Source: Candidatus Saccharimonadota bacterium
GTDB taxonomy: Bacteria > Patescibacteriota > Saccharimonadia > Saccharimonadales > Saccharimonadaceae
Length of the DNA stretch: 64,000 bases
Assembly: GCA_030445245.1 (NCBI GenBank)
Contig: JAUCSD010000001.1
Coordinates: forward strand, 564,671 to 628,670
Direction: 5' to 3'
Shown here: positions 21,182-48,184 of the stretch, in pieces
How positions within the stretch are numbered: the first letter of the stretch is position 1
Layout of the letters: every line of letters starts with the position of its first letter
Notes under the pieces: model-generated
Seen by the model: the letters and a program-made list of their open reading frames with translations, nothing else
Database searches by the model: none
Told to the model about the DNA's origin: nothing
Translations under genes and position numbers: made by a program

Positions 21182-22615
21182 ATGGCACGTCTTCCAAACG
21201 TTGGTTCCGATGAAGGTACGTGGGGCCAAGTACTCAATGATTTCCTTAGCGTGTCACATAGTGTCGACGGTACGATTAAAGATGTCGGGGTAGTTGCTTC
21301 AAAAGCCAATGACAATGCTGTCGTCCATGTATCCGGTGACGAATCCGTAAGTGGGATCAAAACGTTTGCCGCTTCTCCTATCGTACCGACACCTTCCTCG
21401 CCTACACAAGCAGCAAATAAGGGCTACGTAGACACAGTCACATCATCAGGCGCTCCTAATGCGACTACCATCGCACCTGGACTTGTCCAACTAGCTGGTG
21501 ATCTTGGCGGTACAGCTACTTCCGCTACCGCACCCGTCATTACGAATAATGCAATTACGACGGCAAAGATTGCTACAGGTGCCGTCACTTCAAACGAAAT
21601 TGCTGATAGTACGATCACAAACACCGATATTTCCACTGGGGCTGCTATCGCTAAGAGCAAGCTTGCGGCTCTGAACATTGGAGATGCGGACGTAAATACC
21701 ATATCCGAAAGCAAAGTAACCAACTTGACTACTGATTTAGCGAGCAAGGCTCTGGTGAGCAGGCTCATCTCCACGGGAACGGGTCTTGCGGGCGGAGGCG
21801 ATATATCAGCTAACCGTACGCTCAGCGTGACTCCTGATACGACGACTCAGCGCATTCGCGTAAGCGATGCTGGCACGCTTACGGGTACTCGACCGGAGCT
21901 TAACTTCATTGAAGGCAGCAATATTACGATCACCGAGGCGGATAATTCCGTAAGCAACCGAGTAGACGTTACCATTGCCGCAGCAAGTGGTGGAGGTGGT
22001 GGTTTTCGTGGTGCCTGGAGTACAAATACGACATATAATAGTGGTGATATTGTCACCTACACCTCCTCATCTTTTGGGGCAACCGTATCGAACATTAACA
22101 GTGAACCGATTACGCCGACGCCGTTTCTTAGCGGCACACCCGGAACGGTGGATAGTGGCGACGGTGGCTCGTATGAAATGGGTATTCGGTTTACCGTTAG
22201 CCAACCAGTTCATATGACATCAATTAATTTTTACAGATCGGGCCTGGGCAATGCGGGTCCCCATACCGGACGCCTATGGGATGCTTCGACGCCTGGATCC
22301 GAGACTGTACTCACCTCAGGTACGTTCAATAGCGAGACGACAACTGGCGTTCAAACTGTACCTCTTATCTATGAGCTCCAGCCAGGCGTCACCTATAGCG
22401 TTTCGGTCGGTTTTCCAAGCGGACATTATTCCGTAGATAATAATTATTACACCTCGGCAGTAACTGTGGGTTCCGTTACAGTCCCAGCGGGAGGAAGTCA
22501 TTTCTCAAACTCAATAGGAATATTTCCCAGTCAAGGTGCAGGTACGACTAATTACTGGGTATTTTTGACCTGGGATGAACCTGATGCCAATTGGTCAATC
22601 ATCGGCAGGTTCTAA
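21182..22615 (+). CDS. Mosaic surface protein: shared N-module, fibre-like repeats, DUF4082 domain
   Basis: The 477-residue protein opens with MARLPNVGSDEGTWGQVLND, a module shared with the genes at 28375 and 48184. A fibre-like region follows (GLVQLAGDLGGTAT near residue 100), then a glycine-rich linker and a C-terminal DUF4082-like beta domain (about residues 310-450) with LWDASTPGSETVLTSGTF and a GHYSVDNNYY segment. DUF4082 domains occur on sugar-associated extracellular proteins. No classical signal peptide is seen. AAAGGTGA precedes the start. A role in cell-surface or host-attachment structures is inferred from the domains. Confidence 0.65.
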   Translation: MARLPNVGSDEGTWGQVLNDFLSVSHSVDGTIKDVGVVASKANDNAVVHVSGDESVSGIKTFAASPIVPTPSSPTQAANKGYVDTVTSSGAPNATTIAPGLVQLAGDLGGTATSATAPVITNNAITTAKIATGAVTSNEIADSTITNTDISTGAAIAKSKLAALNIGDADVNTISESKVTNLTTDLASKALVSRLISTGTGLAGGGDISANRTLSVTPDTTTQRIRVSDAGTLTGTRPELNFIEGSNITITEADNSVSNRVDVTIAAASGGGGGFRGAWSTNTTYNSGDIVTYTSSSFGATVSNINSEPITPTPFLSGTPGTVDSGDGGSYEMGIRFTVSQPVHMTSINFYRSGLGNAGPHTGRLWDASTPGSETVLTSGTFNSETTTGVQTVPLIYELQPGVTYSVSVGFPSGHYSVDNNYYTSAVTVGSVTVPAGGSHFSNSIGIFPSQGAGTTNYWVFLTWDEPDANWSIIGRF

Positions 22616-28374: not shown

Positions 28375-30036
28375 ATGTCACGTCTTCCTATACCAGGTTC
28401 TGACAGCGGTTCATGGGGAACAGTCTTGAATGATTTTTTAGATGTCTCCCATAATGCTGACGGTTCACTTAAAAGCAGCCAGGTCGCCTCGGCTGGTGCT
28501 GAGCTAACAAACAACAAAGGTCAGGCAAACGGCTACGCGCCCTTAGACGGATCCTCAAAGGTACCTATTGCAAATCTGCCAGTTGGCTCTATAGGCAATA
28601 CCGTTGCAGCTGGCAACGATAGCCGCATAACCGGGGCTTTGCAATCAGGCGCAGCCGCTGCGGGTGATTTGAGCGGAACCTACCCTAACCCAACGGTTGT
28701 AAAACTTAATGGGGTCACGGTGACTGGAACGCCTGCAAACGGTAAAATATTAACTGCATCTAGTGCTAGCGCCGCTAGCTGGCAGGCACCGTCTAGCAAT
28801 GCTTGGCAGTTTGATGTCCGGACATATGGCGCAGTTGGTGACGGCACGACAAACGATACTACGGCAATTCAGTCGGCGATCGACGCTGCGGCAGCGTACG
28901 GATTAGCCAACCAAGGCTATGCAGAGGTTATATTCGCACCTGCAATATACCTATTATCTTCGACTGCACGCACAGACCGTAGCGGTAACGCACAGCTAGC
29001 TCTTCCTATTATTGCGGCGACAGCGAATAAGCTGACGCTTGCATTTCTTGGTACACAAGATTCTGCGTCAATGCCCCATTGGAACGCAACTACACCACAG
29101 CTAAACGGCGTTGTTTTGAAATCGACATGGAATGCACCTGATCAATCCGGATCATCGAATGAAGGTAGTGTTATTGGTGGCCCAACACTTCCTAACGGAT
29201 ATGTAACTGGCGCTAACTACTCCAACTGCAATATCGTCATTAAAGGCATCCAAATACAGGTGCCTTTTACCGCACGTGGATCAGATACAACGGGTATAGA
29301 CCTTCGGGGTATGGCAAATGCCCATGTTGAGGATGTAGCGTTCTTCCCTGCTGCAACACCCAACCAGTTAAACACGACCTATGCAACTCCAGGTTGGAAT
29401 TTAGGTATCGCCATGCCCGTCCCTGGTAACAATGATTTATCGATAATGAGAAATTGTAGTGTCGAAGGTGCTACGTACGGATTTTACCTTGGCGAACACC
29501 TTTCCGCTGATCGTTTAGCGGCAATTTATTGCTATACCGGCATATTATCAGGCGGTTTCTTTAGTTCGGTTGGTCAGCTTCACTACAACTGGATTGGCAG
29601 CGCAAGTGTTGAGGCTTGCGTAAACGCCGTACATGTTGTTTCTGGCGGCAAAGTTGTGATCAATGCACTTTCTGTCGAAGGAAGTATGAATCACTTAGTA
29701 GACAACGCAGGTACTGCCGTCGGATCGATCGGTCTTGGTGGCATTATAAGTACTATCAATGTTTCCAATCCGACCAACGTCAAGGTAACATACCTCGATG
29801 CTGCAGCTGGAACGGTGGCGGCACCGACTATGCCAGCAAGTACCACGGCATTACGTAATCCATTTTGGAGAGATGCGGCTGTTCAGGTAAACAATGGTAG
29901 TGCTACAGTCACAAATGTTAGCGTTGATGGCGCGACGATTTTAACTGGACCGGGCATGGTAATCGTACCTAGCGGCAAAAGAATAACCGTGACGTACAGC
30001 GGTGGCACGCCCACATGGTCATGGACTTTATTGTAA
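28375..30036 (+). CDS. Mosaic surface protein: shared N-module plus pectate-lyase-like beta helix
   Basis: The 553-residue protein begins MSRLPIPGSDSGSWGTVLND, the shared module, then a fibre-like linker (SGTYPNPTVVKLNGV), then WQFDVRTYGAVGDGTTNDT at about residues 142-162. The last is the hallmark start of pectate-lyase-superfamily right-handed beta helices, also found in phage tailspikes. Repetitive beta-strand sequence follows to about residue 480, then a small C-terminal beta domain. No signal peptide is recognised. It could bind or cut surface polysaccharide of a host cell; catalytic residues cannot be assigned by eye. Confidence 0.7.
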   Translation: MSRLPIPGSDSGSWGTVLNDFLDVSHNADGSLKSSQVASAGAELTNNKGQANGYAPLDGSSKVPIANLPVGSIGNTVAAGNDSRITGALQSGAAAAGDLSGTYPNPTVVKLNGVTVTGTPANGKILTASSASAASWQAPSSNAWQFDVRTYGAVGDGTTNDTTAIQSAIDAAAAYGLANQGYAEVIFAPAIYLLSSTARTDRSGNAQLALPIIAATANKLTLAFLGTQDSASMPHWNATTPQLNGVVLKSTWNAPDQSGSSNEGSVIGGPTLPNGYVTGANYSNCNIVIKGIQIQVPFTARGSDTTGIDLRGMANAHVEDVAFFPAATPNQLNTTYATPGWNLGIAMPVPGNNDLSIMRNCSVEGATYGFYLGEHLSADRLAAIYCYTGILSGGFFSSVGQLHYNWIGSASVEACVNAVHVVSGGKVVINALSVEGSMNHLVDNAGTAVGSIGLGGIISTINVSNPTNVKVTYLDAAAGTVAAPTMPASTTALRNPFWRDAAVQVNNGSATVTNVSVDGATILTGPGMVIVPSGKRITVTYSGGTPTWSWTLL

Positions 30037-30183: not shown

Positions 30184-30852
30184 CTATAGTGGCGCAATGA
30201 GTTTCGGTGAATCTATCTTTGGCGAATAAATATCGATTCCTACTTCAGTAACAAGTATTTGTTCGCTTGAGATTGGACGAAGCATACCGAACAATGAACT
30301 AGTATCAATAATTGACGTATCTAGCCATCGCGTCTCGTCGCTTTGACTTAAAATAACCGGCATACGATCGCCAATATGACGTAGTGAATCTGGTACATCA
30401 CTCGTGATGATAGAAAATGTCGAACGCGTAACTCCTGCGTCGTCCCAACTACTATATATTCCGGCAAAGGCGAAAAGAGGGGTGTCTTTTTGCTGAATAT
30501 AGTATGCCTGCCTCTCATCCCCTTTCCCTACTAATTGGTAGAATCCATTAGCAGGTACAAGGCAACGATTATGCTCGACGGCAGTTGCCCAGCTATGCTT
30601 GGTGAATATTTTTTCAGAAGGCACATTATATGTCTTGTAGCGAAAAACAGAGTTTGTATCTTTTACACCTTTAGGTGTAAGCCCCCATCCCATTTGCTCA
30701 GCTACGACACCGTCACCCCTACTTACAATGACTGGTACTTGTAGAGTTGGGGATATATTATAACGTGGCTTAATACCCTTCGGTAGGCCACTAGCTAATA
30801 CAAAGCGGTCACGGATGTCGGATGTTGTATAAAGGCTATATCGTGAGATCAT
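30184..30852 (-). CDS. SRAP/YedK (HMCES)-like protein lacking catalytic residues
   Basis: The 222-residue protein follows the SRAP fold throughout: RYNISPTLQVPV, EQMGWGLTPKG, NRCLVPANGFYQL, TPLFAFAGIYSSW and DRMPVILSQ. Active YedK/HMCES enzymes need Cys2, an NAR motif, Glu in FYEW/FEW and His in IHDRxP. Here residue 2 is Ile, NAR reads NVP, the Glu is Gln (about residue 105) and the His is Gly (about 160). It should therefore be unable to form the thiazolidine DNA-protein crosslink at abasic sites. TATACT six bases before the ATG suggests a leaderless transcript. It may retain single-strand DNA binding. Confidence 0.85.
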   Translation of the reverse strand: MISRYSLYTTSDIRDRFVLASGLPKGIKPRYNISPTLQVPVIVSRGDGVVAEQMGWGLTPKGVKDTNSVFRYKTYNVPSEKIFTKHSWATAVEHNRCLVPANGFYQLVGKGDERQAYYIQQKDTPLFAFAGIYSSWDDAGVTRSTFSIITSDVPDSLRHIGDRMPVILSQSDETRWLDTSIIDTSSLFGMLRPISSEQILVTEVGIDIYSPKIDSPKLIAPL

Positions 30853-31245
30853 AACTTTAGTATACCCTACCTCTTTAAATATACCGCTACGCAGTTATAT
30901 TCATCCCTATAGACGACGTCTTGCCCGTCTGTGTATCTATCATGCCCCTACGACAGGACTACACAAAATGCTTCCGCTCGTGACTAAGAGTACTTCTCGT
31001 TCGTCCATAATAACAGATCCGCGATTGACGCGTATGGGCTATGTCATACGATGTGAAAGGGTTTACTTGTCATGAGGGTGTAGTCATTGGCTAAGGGATT
31101 CGAACCCCTGATAACAGGGGGATATTGAGGCGAACGAATAGAAACACGCGAATATGCGTGTTTCTATCTCCGTCACTAATCGTAGCTGACCATCCGCTCC
31201 GTGAACACGAATGATATGGTCAGGCAATCAATTCAATTAGATGCA
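30853..31245. other. Gene-free stretch with tRNA-end scar 6 and a hairpin
   Basis: At 31087-31119 the plus strand reads TGGCTAAGGGATTCGAACCCCT: on the minus strand a complete T arm with TTCGAAT loop joined almost directly to CCA, as if the acceptor 3' strand were deleted. ATAGAAACACGC/GCGTGTTTCTAT forms a 12-base-pair hairpin at 31138-31167, here on the T-arm side rather than the CCA side. No gene is visible. Confidence 0.55.
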
Positions 31246-32016
31246 CTAAGGCAGCTTAGGGTCGCGCATTTGTCCCTTTCCTCTCCTCCACGGAGCCGCT
31301 TGAATAAAGGGTTCGTACAAATCATCTTCGGACGAAATATATACAGATTTTAATTCTATCTCAGTTGGATCTTGTAGTTGAAACTTCACAAAAGGAGCGT
31401 CTGAGATTATGGCTATCGGTGTCTGCTCGGCACCTTCACCCATCACTACATTGGCTGCCACCGCAAGACCACTACCTATAGCCGCTTTTTCAACTACGAA
31501 GGAACGACCGAACAAGTCCTTCTCTCTCGCTAGATGATTGACAGCGACAAATCCGCTATGAGCGAGCATTATACCAACTGCTCCAAGTCGCATAAGTGGC
31601 ATGCTTGTACTATCAGTAATAATAACGCCAACCTCATTTAGTCCAAAGTGGTTTTGCAGAAAAGCTCGGAGCTCGTTAGCGACTCGTTGTGGATCTTTTG
31701 GCCATAACACAAAGTATCCATCTCCATTCGATTCATCAATTCCCGCTGATGAAATAAAGGTATTATTTGTGATAGTAAACTGAAAGCCATACCGACTAAA
31801 GTCTCTAGGGAGATAGAAGTCAGCCTCACGTTCTACAAGATCAGATTTTGCAATAGTAGATCTATCGATTATCCGATTTTGACAAAGAGCGACTATTTTG
31901 GAGCTTACTGCAATAATTGATTTTTCATCAAGACTAGTTACGCTTTTGGCCATGAGCTCATGAAGCGTAGATTCGTTTCCATGTACAAGTTGTGTTTTTA
32001 TTGCTGTTACTATCAT
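31246..32016 (-). CDS. CofE-like gamma-glutamyl ligase (folate-metabolism type)
   Basis: The start at 32016 (MIVTAIKTQL) has AAAAGG six bases upstream. The roughly 256-residue protein shows the CofE/F420-0:gamma-glutamyl ligase pattern: IIAVSSKIVAL, SAGIDESNGDGYFVLWP and VIITDSTSMPLMRLGAVGI. CPR genomes carry a relative annotated as a putative folate-metabolism gamma-glutamate ligase rather than a true F420 enzyme, and the FolC-like gene two places upstream fits that. The expected reaction is GTP-dependent addition of glutamate to an acid acceptor. The acceptor is not known. Confidence 0.8.
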   Translation of the reverse strand: MIVTAIKTQLVHGNESTLHELMAKSVTSLDEKSIIAVSSKIVALCQNRIIDRSTIAKSDLVEREADFYLPRDFSRYGFQFTITNNTFISSAGIDESNGDGYFVLWPKDPQRVANELRAFLQNHFGLNEVGVIITDSTSMPLMRLGAVGIMLAHSGFVAVNHLAREKDLFGRSFVVEKAAIGSGLAVAANVVMGEGAEQTPIAIISDAPFVKFQLQDPTEIELKSVYISSEDDLYEPFIQAAPWRRGKGQMRDPKLP

Positions 32017-32036
32017 GATCATCCTTTTAGTCGATA

Positions 32037-32799: not shown

Positions 32800-34050
32800 T
32801 TATCTGTCTTGCACTCTGAAAATACAGTTGGTATTATCACCCAATATTTTCAAAACAAACGCCGAGTAGTAGGCGGTCCCAACAACTAGCACAGTTCCTG
32901 TCTCGAGCAGCCTGTGCAGTTCATCATCTTCAATCCAGTCCCACGGCCAAGCTGCCCTGCTAGGGTAGGGAGCGTGGGATTTCTTTATATTCACGAATAC
33001 CTTCCGAGAGTTGACGCTTTGTAACTCCTGGATGAAACCTTCAAGATCCTTATTACGATGGAGAGAGACGGCGATGATGTCAGGATCCCTTCCGAAGCGT
33101 GAGACGGCAAATGCAATTGCAGACACGAGTCCGTCTCTCGATATAGCCGAATCGATAATAACCTTCCCTTCTTTGTGCTGATGTTCCGACAATCTGCCTG
33201 GATAATGAACGGTCTCTAAAGTCTTTCGCAAAGCGCTACCACTCACTTGTTGTGTATCAATAGATTTGCATAACGCCACACCGGCCTGCACTCCAGCGAC
33301 TGCGTTAAGCCGATTATGACCCGGCGGATAGTAGGTAGCGTGCGAGTCATCATCCGTCTCTTCGTTCACCCATATCAGGTCTGAGTTAAATTTATCGCAG
33401 GCTGCTATGACCTCTTTACGAACAGGATCCGCTTGAGGCAAACTAAATATACGTCTGGTTCTTGCGGATAGCACGCCCATTTTATTGCGGGCTATGTCGA
33501 TAAGTGTCGGGCCAATAATCTCATTATGTTCGTTAAATATCTGCGTAACGATTAGCTCGTCCAGTTCAAATAGTGAGAGCTCATCGCTACGTCCGCCCAT
33601 GCCAGCTTCGATTACTATAGCATCACAACCCTCCTTTATTAGGGTGGATACCCCTCCAATCATGTACAGCCCACTAGGTGAAAGATAGCCCGTTTTTTGG
33701 CTCAAGGGAGGGAGCTTCTCTCTTACAGAGAGGATTTCATTGAGCATGTCTTGATATAATTCAGATGAGAGGACTCTCCCATCTATGCGCACGCGATCAA
33801 TATTAGCTATAACACCAGGACTTGTTATCGTCCCCACCTTATGTCCACAAGCTGCAATCGCTGCCGAGGCATATACAGCTGAGGTACCTTTCCCTTTTGA
33901 TCCAACAACCCCAAGTACAGGGATTGTGCGAAGTTTCTTTGTGAGATCAAGTTGTTTTATAACCAGCGAGGCACGCTTTAAACTTCTCGTGGACACATTT
34001 CGCTGCTGCGACCATTCACTAAACATCGCTCGATCTTCAAGTTCGTCCAT
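32800..34050 (-). CDS. FolC/Mur-ligase-type glutamate ligase
   Basis: The 416-residue protein carries the ATP-binding VLGVVGSKGKGTSAVYAS at about residues 45-62, the second-site VIEAGMGGRSDEL and the Mur-family GHNRLNAVAG segment near 268, typical of folylpolyglutamate synthase/Mur ligases. Length is slightly below the usual 420-450. TATAAT six bases before the ATG suggests a leaderless message. With the downstream NlpC/P60 and CofE-like genes it forms a set that could add and trim gamma-glutamyl residues on a folate-like or peptide acceptor. The acceptor is inference. Confidence 0.8.
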   Translation of the reverse strand: MDELEDRAMFSEWSQQRNVSTRSLKRASLVIKQLDLTKKLRTIPVLGVVGSKGKGTSAVYASAAIAACGHKVGTITSPGVIANIDRVRIDGRVLSSELYQDMLNEILSVREKLPPLSQKTGYLSPSGLYMIGGVSTLIKEGCDAIVIEAGMGGRSDELSLFELDELIVTQIFNEHNEIIGPTLIDIARNKMGVLSARTRRIFSLPQADPVRKEVIAACDKFNSDLIWVNEETDDDSHATYYPPGHNRLNAVAGVQAGVALCKSIDTQQVSGSALRKTLETVHYPGRLSEHQHKEGKVIIDSAISRDGLVSAIAFAVSRFGRDPDIIAVSLHRNKDLEGFIQELQSVNSRKVFVNIKKSHAPYPSRAAWPWDWIEDDELHRLLETGTVLVVGTAYYSAFVLKILGDNTNCIFRVQDR

Positions 34051-45488: not shown

Positions 45489-46649
45489 CTAAGGATTTGC
45501 TGCAATAAGCGTCGCTAAATCACTCAATGTAGCACGCCCAGCTTGTCCACTAGTCAGGCTGTCATAATTAAGCCATATCAACCCTTGATAGCCAGTAGTT
45601 ATTGATGGACTTCCAGGATAGCTTGCTGTTGAAAGTGCCGAGCCATATGTTGCACCTGAGAAAATCGCTTGCATACCGGCTGTAGATTCATTACCCGTAT
45701 TTTCACCCATCATTCGGTGATGCTTATTGCGTTTAAGGGCCTCTTCGTAAATTTTCTTCCAAGCACTTTTATCGGAATCGACGGTACCACCTGGAAATCC
45801 ATCTGCCGTATTTAACCAAGTGCAGTAAGGCCAAACATCAGGGTGTTTCATCGTCCATGCTATGGCGCGTACCGGGTCTTCACCGTACGCTGCCGCTTGT
45901 TTATAGCCGCTACTACTATGGGCTTGATTGGAACGTACACCATAGCCCGGAAGCATTACATGTACCTCTGCCGTAAAGCCTATGGATCGATGCTGCTGAT
46001 AATACCATTCCAGCCAAGTAATCAGACCGTTAAGGTACCAATTAGTCCAAATAGAGTCATTGGTGTCACTACCACCACTAAAAGGAATATATCCAGGCAA
46101 CGGACATACAACCTGGTCAGTTGCAAGACCAACACCAGTCTGCATTGATGCACCAAAGCCCCAAAATGAAAAACCAGTAGAATAGACGCCTGGATAATGA
46201 GCTTCTCCGTACCAACCCCCGCCCATACGAATGGCCGCCACTTGCTTAACGCGTCCGTCGCCTAGACCAAGCGCTACTTTGCTCATAAAATCGGCCACAC
46301 ACTGCCGACCAAGTGCAGTCCAAAACCAGTTACGTACAATCTTGCCAGAGGCAGTCGTATCGTTAACGTTACCGCTTTGATCAACGAAGTTTTCAATACC
46401 TGTTTGCACCCATGCGGGTGGGTATTGTAGATTAAAGTCAAAGATGACCTTCAAGCCCACGCTGGCACAATCATCAAATTCCTGGCAAAGTATAGCAATT
46501 GCCGAGGCGTCGAGTGCCGTACCTACACCATTAGGCTGCAGGCTACTCCATGAAGCTGGCACATCAGCATGGGTCACTCCGGCTACTCGTATCTGACGCT
46601 TTGCATTTATATCACCGACAGGCATTGAGAGTACCCCATATGTCTTCAT
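45489..46649 (-). CDS. TIM-barrel glycoside-hydrolase-like protein
   Basis: The start is taken at 46649, where it overlaps the upstream stop (TAATG); a start 18 bases earlier is possible. The 386-residue protein has an alternating strand-helix pattern with GLKVIFDFNLQYPPAW, IRMGGGWYGEAHYPG and RMMGENTGNES. The two glutamates after strands would suit the acid/base and nucleophile of a clan-A glycosidase. No signal peptide is seen. Coupling to the mosaic surface protein suggests joint export or assembly, perhaps as a glycan-processing unit. The family cannot be fixed by eye. Confidence 0.5.
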   Translation of the reverse strand: MKTYGVLSMPVGDINAKRQIRVAGVTHADVPASWSSLQPNGVGTALDASAIAILCQEFDDCASVGLKVIFDFNLQYPPAWVQTGIENFVDQSGNVNDTTASGKIVRNWFWTALGRQCVADFMSKVALGLGDGRVKQVAAIRMGGGWYGEAHYPGVYSTGFSFWGFGASMQTGVGLATDQVVCPLPGYIPFSGGSDTNDSIWTNWYLNGLITWLEWYYQQHRSIGFTAEVHVMLPGYGVRSNQAHSSSGYKQAAAYGEDPVRAIAWTMKHPDVWPYCTWLNTADGFPGGTVDSDKSAWKKIYEEALKRNKHHRMMGENTGNESTAGMQAIFSGATYGSALSTASYPGSPSITTGYQGLIWLNYDSLTSGQAGRATLSDLATLIAANP

Positions 46650-48184
46650 TAGTTCACTGCCATCCAAGAAACAATATTACTGGTAAGAGAGCTAGTAAGC
46701 GTGATGGTACTTGGCATACTAGTCAAGCCGGAGCCATACGATGCTTGTCGTGGGTTGGCCGATGTTACTCCAGCGTTAACGGCTGCGTTTGGTGCGGCGG
46801 CGGAGGCTCGCCCAAATTGTGGAATGGTTGTTCCATTTGCAAGGACTGACAGATAGTAGTAGCCCGCCGTGACAGATTGAGGAGTGGTGAGCGCCATAGT
46901 CTTTAAGCCAAGCGTCGTCCATACAGAAGATTGATCTGCGGTCGTCGAGAGTAGTGTGCCGCTGGCGTTATATAGTGCTGCATAATTAGCATTAACCGTT
47001 AGACTTGCGCCAATAGTACCCACGTATATTAGAATATTTGTAAGTGTTGTGTTTGCCGAAATAGAGATCTTTGCCAATAAGATGACACCGGCTGGCGGCG
47101 CGGCATTGGCGGCAATCATAGCCGGGTCGTAGTCCCAGGCAATAAGACCCTGATCACCAGGACCGGGGTAGCTCGAACCCGCAGGCCCAGTCGCACCCTG
47201 CGAACCAATCGAAACGAAAAGTACCCAAGGACTATTAGGCGCACCGGGTGTACCAGGGTTAACTCCTGTCGTACCGGCCGAAGCATAGTACGCCGAACCG
47301 TTGTATGTCACGCAATCATTTATGCCGTACGTCGTAGCGTTATTATATGTGCCACGTAGCGTAAGACCTGTCGGACCAGCAGGACCAGCAGGACCAGGTG
47401 CCGCAAGTTGTGCCCACTTCGTGCTATCTGTACCCGGCGTAACGTTTGCACTAGTAGCCAGTGCTATGTAGGTACCACCGTTATAGGTTACTACACTGGC
47501 TGGCGGACCAGCAGTATATGTAGTGACAGATGACCAAACCGCAACCGTTGCCCAAGGCGAGGTAGCCGTGAAGCTCGCCCACTTGATGCCCCCAGTTTGA
47601 GCCGAATCTTTCGTAAGAACCTGGTCGTTATTTCCGCCAGTTAAGGAAAGCTTCGCGTTCGTCACACTCCCATCCATAGGTACACGCTGGTCGGTCAATC
47701 GTGAGTCGCTCGTTACAACAACATTTGTGCCATTTGCTGTCAGGCCACCAGTAAAATCCTTAGCTCCCGTGATTGTTTCAGTCGTAGCCTTATGGACAAC
47801 CGCTGTGTCGGTTGCTTTGCCAGTAAGCCCTGGCACCGTCGGGCTCGTTGCTGTTCCACCAAGATCACCCGTCAACTGGACAATGCCCTTGGTCGTAGGA
47901 CTAGCATCTGGTGCTCCAGCTGAGACAGTACTATCTACATACGATTTGTTAGCTGCTTGAGAGCCAAGCGTTGGCGTCGGTACGACAGGTGAGGCTTGAA
48001 AGGTCTTAGTCCCGGAGATGGACTCATTGCCGGTGTTGTGAACGACGGCAGTATCATCAGCTTTGCTGGCTATTACTCCACTAGCTTTGAGTGTGCCGTC
48101 TGGATTATGGGCAACATCAAGAAAGTCGTTGAGAATAGTTCCCCACGTACCGTCATCCCGTCCAGGTGTTGGTAATCTCGACAT
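46649..48184 (-). CDS. Mosaic surface protein: shared N-module, CBM-like and collagen-like parts
   Basis: The 511-residue protein starts MSRLPTPGRDDGTWGTILND and stays similar to the protein at 21182 for about 120 residues (KTFQASPVVPTP, GIVQLTGDLGGTATSPTVP). Then come two carbohydrate-binding CBM5/12-like units (VVTYNGGTYIALATS and CVTYNGSAYYASAGTT), short collagen-like GPAGPAGPTG stretches and a C-terminal beta-sandwich-like region. No signal peptide is found. It is translationally coupled to the glycosidase-like gene. A glycan-binding fibre is the likely role. Confidence 0.65.
   Translation of the reverse strand: MSRLPTPGRDDGTWGTILNDFLDVAHNPDGTLKASGVIASKADDTAVVHNTGNESISGTKTFQASPVVPTPTLGSQAANKSYVDSTVSAGAPDASPTTKGIVQLTGDLGGTATSPTVPGLTGKATDTAVVHKATTETITGAKDFTGGLTANGTNVVVTSDSRLTDQRVPMDGSVTNAKLSLTGGNNDQVLTKDSAQTGGIKWASFTATSPWATVAVWSSVTTYTAGPPASVVTYNGGTYIALATSANVTPGTDSTKWAQLAAPGPAGPAGPTGLTLRGTYNNATTYGINDCVTYNGSAYYASAGTTGVNPGTPGAPNSPWVLFVSIGSQGATGPAGSSYPGPGDQGLIAWDYDPAMIAANAAPPAGVILLAKISISANTTLTNILIYVGTIGASLTVNANYAALYNASGTLLSTTADQSSVWTTLGLKTMALTTPQSVTAGYYYLSVLANGTTIPQFGRASAAAPNAAVNAGVTSANPRQASYGSGLTSMPSTITLTSSLTSNIVSWMAVN

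Follow-up and report, generated by a model that had tools for sequence, protein, structure and literature searches.

SRAP proteins normally bond covalently to damaged DNA. In two papers the cysteine at position 2 of the SRAP domain is termed 'absolutely conserved' (PMC3765255) and 'invariant' (PMC9436759), the latter reporting for YedK that the Cys2 thiol is required for a stable DPC. What purpose, then, is served by a SRAP gene whose second codon specifies isoleucine? The gene lies in the window, the whole stretch of DNA analysed here, which comprises 64,000 nucleotides of a Candidatus Saccharimonadota bacterium genome (GCA_030445245.1, contig JAUCSD010000001.1, positions 564,671 to 628,670). 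Our comparisons of sequences make it moderately probable that its product belongs to a clade of single origin, composed of crosslink-dead SRAPs that are selected for a non-covalent role, most plausibly the binding of nucleic acid. A search confined to the titles of open-licence PMC papers, with subscription papers outside its scope, yielded no description of a natural Cys2-less SRAP, and nothing was found on HMCES R98E in the open-licence PMC literature.

The gene, its start codon and its active-site positions

The features on which the argument draws are the following, in window coordinates.

30852..30184, minus strand: Cys2-less SRAP gene, 222 aa (Pfam SRAP PF02586, model fold, sole SRAP of the genome)
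30859..30864, minus strand: TATACT -10 box, 6 nt 5' of the ATG, conserved among Cys2-less relatives
30847..30849, minus strand: Ile2 codon ATC replacing Cys2 (alignment to E. coli YedK)
30631..30645, minus strand: FRYKT motif, residues 70-74, directly before the NAR strand
30619..30627, minus strand: N76-V77-P78 replacing N75-A76-R77, with Asn kept and Arg lost (YedK alignment)
30535..30537, minus strand: Gln106 replacing Glu105 (YedK alignment)
30370..30372, minus strand: Gly161 replacing His160 (YedK alignment)
30364..30366, minus strand: Arg163 (YedK R162), present in 25 of 26 clade members whose sequence covers this site

The open reading frame runs from an ATG at 30852..30850 to a stop codon that ends at 30184. 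Its product aligns with profile positions 1-210 of 214 of Pfam SRAP PF02586 at 165.2 bits (E 2e-48), exceeding the curated cut-off of 27.1 bits, while the AF2 model of the protein, with a mean pLDDT of 91.9, finds its best structural matches in SRAP entries (15 listed, with Z of 21-29 and 2f20, HMCES and YedK at the top). By descent and fold the window protein is a member of the SRAP superfamily, and the frame is the real SRAP gene that the original prediction took it to be. The genome, a single contig of 1.16 Mb that is 99.45% complete, holds this one SRAP gene; the second, active copy for which that prediction advised a search was not found in it.

Aligned with YedK (the E. coli MG1655 record), the window protein presents the replacements C2 to I2, G3 to S3, A76 to V77, R77 to P78, E105 to Q106 and H160 to G161, and retains R4 as R4, N75 as N76 and R162 as R163. 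The substitutions first read from the letters, Ile for Cys2, Gln for the Glu, Gly for the His and NVP for NAR, are thus borne out. The accompanying statement that every key residue had been lost holds for Cys2, the Glu, the His and the Arg of NAR and fails for Asn75, Arg4 and Arg162, so that of the features of a crosslinking SRAP, Cys2, E105 and H160 are absent and N75 is present.

A misplaced start concealing a cysteine was considered and ruled out by the reading of the frame and by the conserved geometry of the -10 box. TATACT or TATAAT stands 6-8 nt before the ATG in 28 of 29 Cys2-less genes; a looser form of the pattern is found in 6 of 20 Cys2 relatives and at 1.7% of 20,000 random window positions. 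The promoter described as intact in the original prediction is one of a conserved kind, and its spacing would imply a leaderless transcript, so that any in-frame Cys further upstream would be unlikely to form part of the protein. The start codon is secure. Similar TATAMT-like boxes precede an early ATG by 3-12 nt in 13 of the 46 window ORFs of at least 150 aa (the one at 30859-30864 and 12 more; random expectation 1.7%), which suggests that leaderless transcription is common in this organism.

The closest relative of the gene (L005), from another genus, has 74% identity to the window protein and shares its Ile2, NVP and FYQL; since the set of Ile2, NVP and Gln recurs there, it is not a sequencing error. 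Relatives from other genera, together with the pN/pS values given below, exclude both sequencing error and recent decay.

Origin and distribution of the Cys2-less proteins

A SRAP gene is present in 35 of the 394 genomes of the window's family, and a locus of the Cys2-less type in 31 of the 394, spread over 16 genera. Where residue 2 is visible, Cys2 is absent from 29 of 35 family genes, its place being taken by Thr (10), Ile (9), Ser (8), Phe (1) or Pro (1) and never by Cys; two further loci (L050, L051) lack the N-terminus and were put with this type by similarity alone. Six family genes keep Cys2 (L008-L012, L031), and two genomes (G160, G219) carry both kinds, about 5 kb apart in G219.

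Maximum-likelihood analysis of 47 proteins recovers the 27 near-complete Cys2-less ones as monophyletic, with support of 100/99. The clade was recovered in 100% of 200 bootstrap trees, retained its 100/99 support after deletion of eleven start and active-site columns, and is nested within Cys2 SRAPs of the same order, with L011, L035 and L037 as its sisters. The tree indicates that Cys2 was lost once, at a single origin of the clade. The members of the deepest branch (L013-L015) combine Ser2 with an intact Asn, Arg/Lys, Glu and His, which makes a replacement of Cys by Ser the probable first step. The trees left out a divergent Cys2 protein (L031) and rows shorter than 180 aa (L032, L049), and the alignment left out fragments and damaged rows (L006, L007, L050, L051, L052, L056-L058); L040, in which the predicted Met and the Cys are not adjacent, was cut back so as to begin with DGCGRY. 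For the site counts YedK was also excluded from the canonical Cys2 set, and conservation of residues was compared between rows at 85% and 25%.

A wider sample, assembled by scanning bacterial and archaeal genomes with the alignment of the clade, by a viral scan and by a search of the phylum, comprises at least 129 loci; the genome scan contributed its best 80 loci, so that a distant Cys2-less group could have been missed. Of the 129 listed, 108 have a Cys at the start motif (by script and by reading of the N-termini), these being all the readable loci outside the clade and including at least four that repeat genes already counted (L109, L110, L112, L122). Fifteen are clade members, each a repeat of a locus in the family set, four are fragments or divergent (L217, L219, L221, L223) and two gave no match. 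One of the divergent loci, L219, encodes a 193-aa SRAP-like protein of another Patescibacteria genome which seems to be without Cys2, Glu and His, and is perhaps an independent loss of Cys2. A viral origin of the gene was rejected, as the Cys was recognized in all 29 viral relatives, by script motif or reading; that the window model had no match at E <=0.001 in the viral structure library carries no weight either way. A contig scan with the window protein as single query gave no match.

No recurrent neighbour that would point to a conserved operon or gene partner of the clade appears among the neighbours listed. Seven of the 36 stretches compared, including one Cys2 stretch, have prepilin-like genes nearby. 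A Y-family polymerase gene adjoins the Cys2 SRAP in three of five family genomes examined (G128, G185 and G219, not G160 or G088), and none was seen beside clade genes among the neighbours listed. The one Y-polymerase found in the window genome is about 260 kb from the SRAP gene, so that a linkage of the SOS/TLS type is absent, and the Cys2-less gene of G219 is about 7 kb from such a gene. A conserved protein of about 90 aa accompanies the polymerase beside the Cys2 SRAPs of G219, G185 and G128 (L081, L090, L091) and is a possible third part of this module. PF03372 is found in all 36 genomes compared and PF00730 in 27 of them, and across these genomes neither AP-endonuclease-type nor HhH-GPD genes are associated with the type of SRAP; compensation for missing AP repair was discarded as an explanation, the absences occurring alike in genomes with a Cys2-less SRAP, a Cys2 SRAP or none.

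Elsewhere in the window, the segment 4040-21140 contains VirB4/VirD4-like conjugation-type ATPases and a type I restriction-modification set, both recognized by eye, with a serine recombinase (PF00239), and is probably an integrated element. Three large proteins (21182-22615 and 28375-30036 on the plus strand, 46649-48184 on the minus strand) have a very similar start, M-A/S-RLP..G.D.G.WG..LNDFL.V.H..DG, and differing C-terminal parts (DUF4082, pectate-lyase-like and CBM-like/baseplate-like), as would befit a variable fibre- or adhesin-like family. On the minus strand, 31246-32022 encodes a F420-0:gamma-glutamyl ligase-type protein (PF01996, 103 bits), near which 32800-34050 encodes a protein that is Mur/FolC-like by eye and has no Pfam match.

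Constraint, predicted mechanism and competing explanations

Across 27 clade rows the numbers of Fitch changes are 8 at C2, 9 at G3, 10 at N75, 9 at R77 and 9 at H160, with 7 at the median site, while none of these five positions changes across 19 Cys2 relatives. P35, G57, P100, G103, A130, W176 and P165 (window numbers) do not change within the clade, whose tree has a summed branch length of 11.3; in YedK numbers, R162 and T149 change once each, R4 four times and E105 five times. Glu105 is kept in 23 of 29 clade members and H160 in 4 of 26, and the R77 position holds R or K in 22 of 29 and Pro in the window protein. Trp67 is replaced throughout the clade, and F70, R71, Y72 and Lys/Arg73 are found in 27 of 27 members. 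The positions of abasic-site chemistry N75, R77 and H160 have thus been released and E105 partly so, being intermediate, under a constraint on the fold that persists. For the window gene (L001) and L005, a pair saturated at synonymous sites, pN/pS is 0.13-0.22; the seven clade pairs for which dS is finite give dN/dS values of 0.03-0.12. The selection for a function other than the crosslink that was originally proposed gains support from these ratios, from the lack of Cys2 in 29 of 29 visible relatives of the type, where uniform possession of Cys2 by close homologues had been named as the mark of recent decay, and from the monophyly of 27 of them. The window protein probably serves something other than crosslinking.

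The initiator Met usually stays before Ile, by the methionine aminopeptidase rule. The window protein would probably retain it and so be without a free N-terminal amine, and lacking both amine and thiol it would have neither Schiff base nor thiazolidine available to it; with Gln106 and Gly161 the acid-base pair would also be gone. A study of YedK (PMC9436759) reports that the N-terminal amine can form a Schiff base even when the thiol is missing, with strand cleavage as the outcome, that borohydride traps C2A and C2S in the Schiff-base form, that E105Q slows the C2A lyase 25-fold and the effect of His160 is 2.5-fold, that E105Q and H160Q suppress ring opening, and that active-site mutants retain DNA binding. 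Set against this chemistry, Ile2, Gln106 and Gly161 make it almost certain that the window protein cannot crosslink and very probable that it is not a lyase. What an AP lyase requires, a free N-terminal amine and Glu105, is compatible with the sequences of most other clade members and not with Ile2 and Gln106.

The window protein would on this reasoning be a pseudoenzyme, unable to make a stable crosslink, that binds non-covalently through the retained SRAP surface and could, with no covalent link, shield or mark single-stranded DNA or junctions. Its ligand would probably be nucleic acid, a property to which we give somewhat better than even credence from the fold, R4, R163, the FRY and Lys/Arg73 of the basic-aromatic FRYKT stretch, and a charge that is more basic in the clade (median net charge +1 in 26 clade proteins vs -2 in 19 Cys2 proteins; Mann-Whitney p 0.008, kinship of the sequences not corrected for). 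Trp67, Arg4 and Arg162 are positions that we take to have a role in DNA contact by YedK. Against a nucleic-acid role, Pro78 in place of Arg and the loss of Trp67 may weaken the usual DNA channel. Other points also weigh against our preferred explanation: the gene has no conserved partner, it is patchy (31 of 394 genomes) and dispensable in places, and the Glu105 kept in 23 of 29 members would fit leftover chemistry in many relatives better than a set of pure pseudoenzymes.

A rival proposal is that the clade consists of natural AP lyases, in which the amine of Ser2 or Thr2 forms a Schiff base and Glu105 drives beta-elimination, cutting in place of capping, with the window protein as a late member that has lost the activity or nearly so. 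The dependence of the YedK C2A lyase on E105 over H160 (PMC9436759) is mirrored by the retention of E105 and not H160 in the clade; where residue 2 is small, E105 is present in 18 of 19 members, against 5 of 10 where residue 2 is Ile or Phe (Fisher p 0.011), and the deepest branch combines Ser2 with intact N, R/K, E and H. However, the link between E105 and residue 2 comes down to three supported independent pairs (sign test p 1), and we treat this association as a lead and not as a result; N75 and R77 vary freely, repair gene content is unassociated, and the window protein itself has Ile2 and Gln106. We regard the proposal as unlikely. Somewhat less so, though still doubtful, is a path that joins it to our own, from covalent cappers through Schiff-base AP lyases (Ser/Thr2, Glu105 kept) to Met-retaining, catalysis-free readers of nucleic acid in the window's subclade; such a route would lead, within one Saccharibacteria family, from a suicide crosslinker to a pseudoenzyme.

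About as improbable as the lyase proposal is the reuse of the scaffold to engage a different ligand or a protein partner, perhaps at a new site near His86. His86, Ser87, Lys61, Ala116 and Met190 are fixed in six of six members of the window's subclade, and His86 occurs in none of 21 other clade rows and none of 20 Cys2 rows, but the subclade sample is only these six rows and no conserved neighbour is found among those listed.

Relaxed selection after the loss of Cys2, with chance retention of a gene on its way out in scattered lineages, is a still poorer account. It would explain the patchy distribution, the drift of active-site positions and the damage at 3 of 31 loci, from which it follows that some lineages can do without the gene: part of the interior is deleted in L047, the 3' half is missing from L049 and in L050 a transporter-like frame replaces the 5' half, while L030 has a short C-terminus. 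Yet 25 of the 31 Cys2-less loci are open over essentially their full length and three more are truncated solely by a contig end, the core sites are invariant over the whole branch length of the tree, pN/pS for the window pair is low as given above, and the promoter box is retained in 28 of 29 genes. In L050 the C-terminal half of the SRAP is fused in frame behind what is by eye an Nramp-like transporter; the fusion could be real or a product of assembly.

Dominant-negative inhibition of an active SRAP made by the same cell, also raised by the original prediction, is scarcely credible, as both kinds occur together in only two of the 31 genomes with a Cys2-less locus (G160, G219), and a second SRAP was not found in the window genome and 28 others.

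Comparison with characterized SRAP proteins

The closest solved structure to the window protein is BT_1218 of Bacteroides thetaiotaomicron (2f20; 29% identity, Z 28.8). The model resembles E. coli YedK over its whole length (Z about 27, 26-27 for YedK-DNA entries; 210 residues at 2.4-2.5 A) and retains the equivalents of N75, R4 and R162, but lacks Cys2, R77, E105 and H160, has Ile2 and is encoded by a solitary gene. The fold is equally like that of the human HMCES SRAP domain (Z 26.6-27.0, 26-27 for HMCES-DNA entries; 218 residues), from which the window protein differs in missing the catalytic Cys2, called invariant in PMC9436759.

The monophyletic Cys2-less group shows that the SRAP fold has a selectable use besides the crosslink. 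Its natural Ser2, Thr2 and Ile2 proteins offer material for separating covalent from non-covalent roles, which bears on the share of HMCES and YedK protection that is owed to binding alone. The Ser2 members L002 and L013-L015 are natural counterparts of the laboratory mutant YedK C2S, whereas the window protein differs from both C2A and C2S in being also without the Glu and His and in having a bulky residue 2. The Cys2 SRAPs of the same order (L011, L035, L037) share with the clade a related stretch, F/M-K-Y-K/N-T, before N75 and, unlike the window protein, keep C2, G3, W67, N75, R77, E105 and H160.
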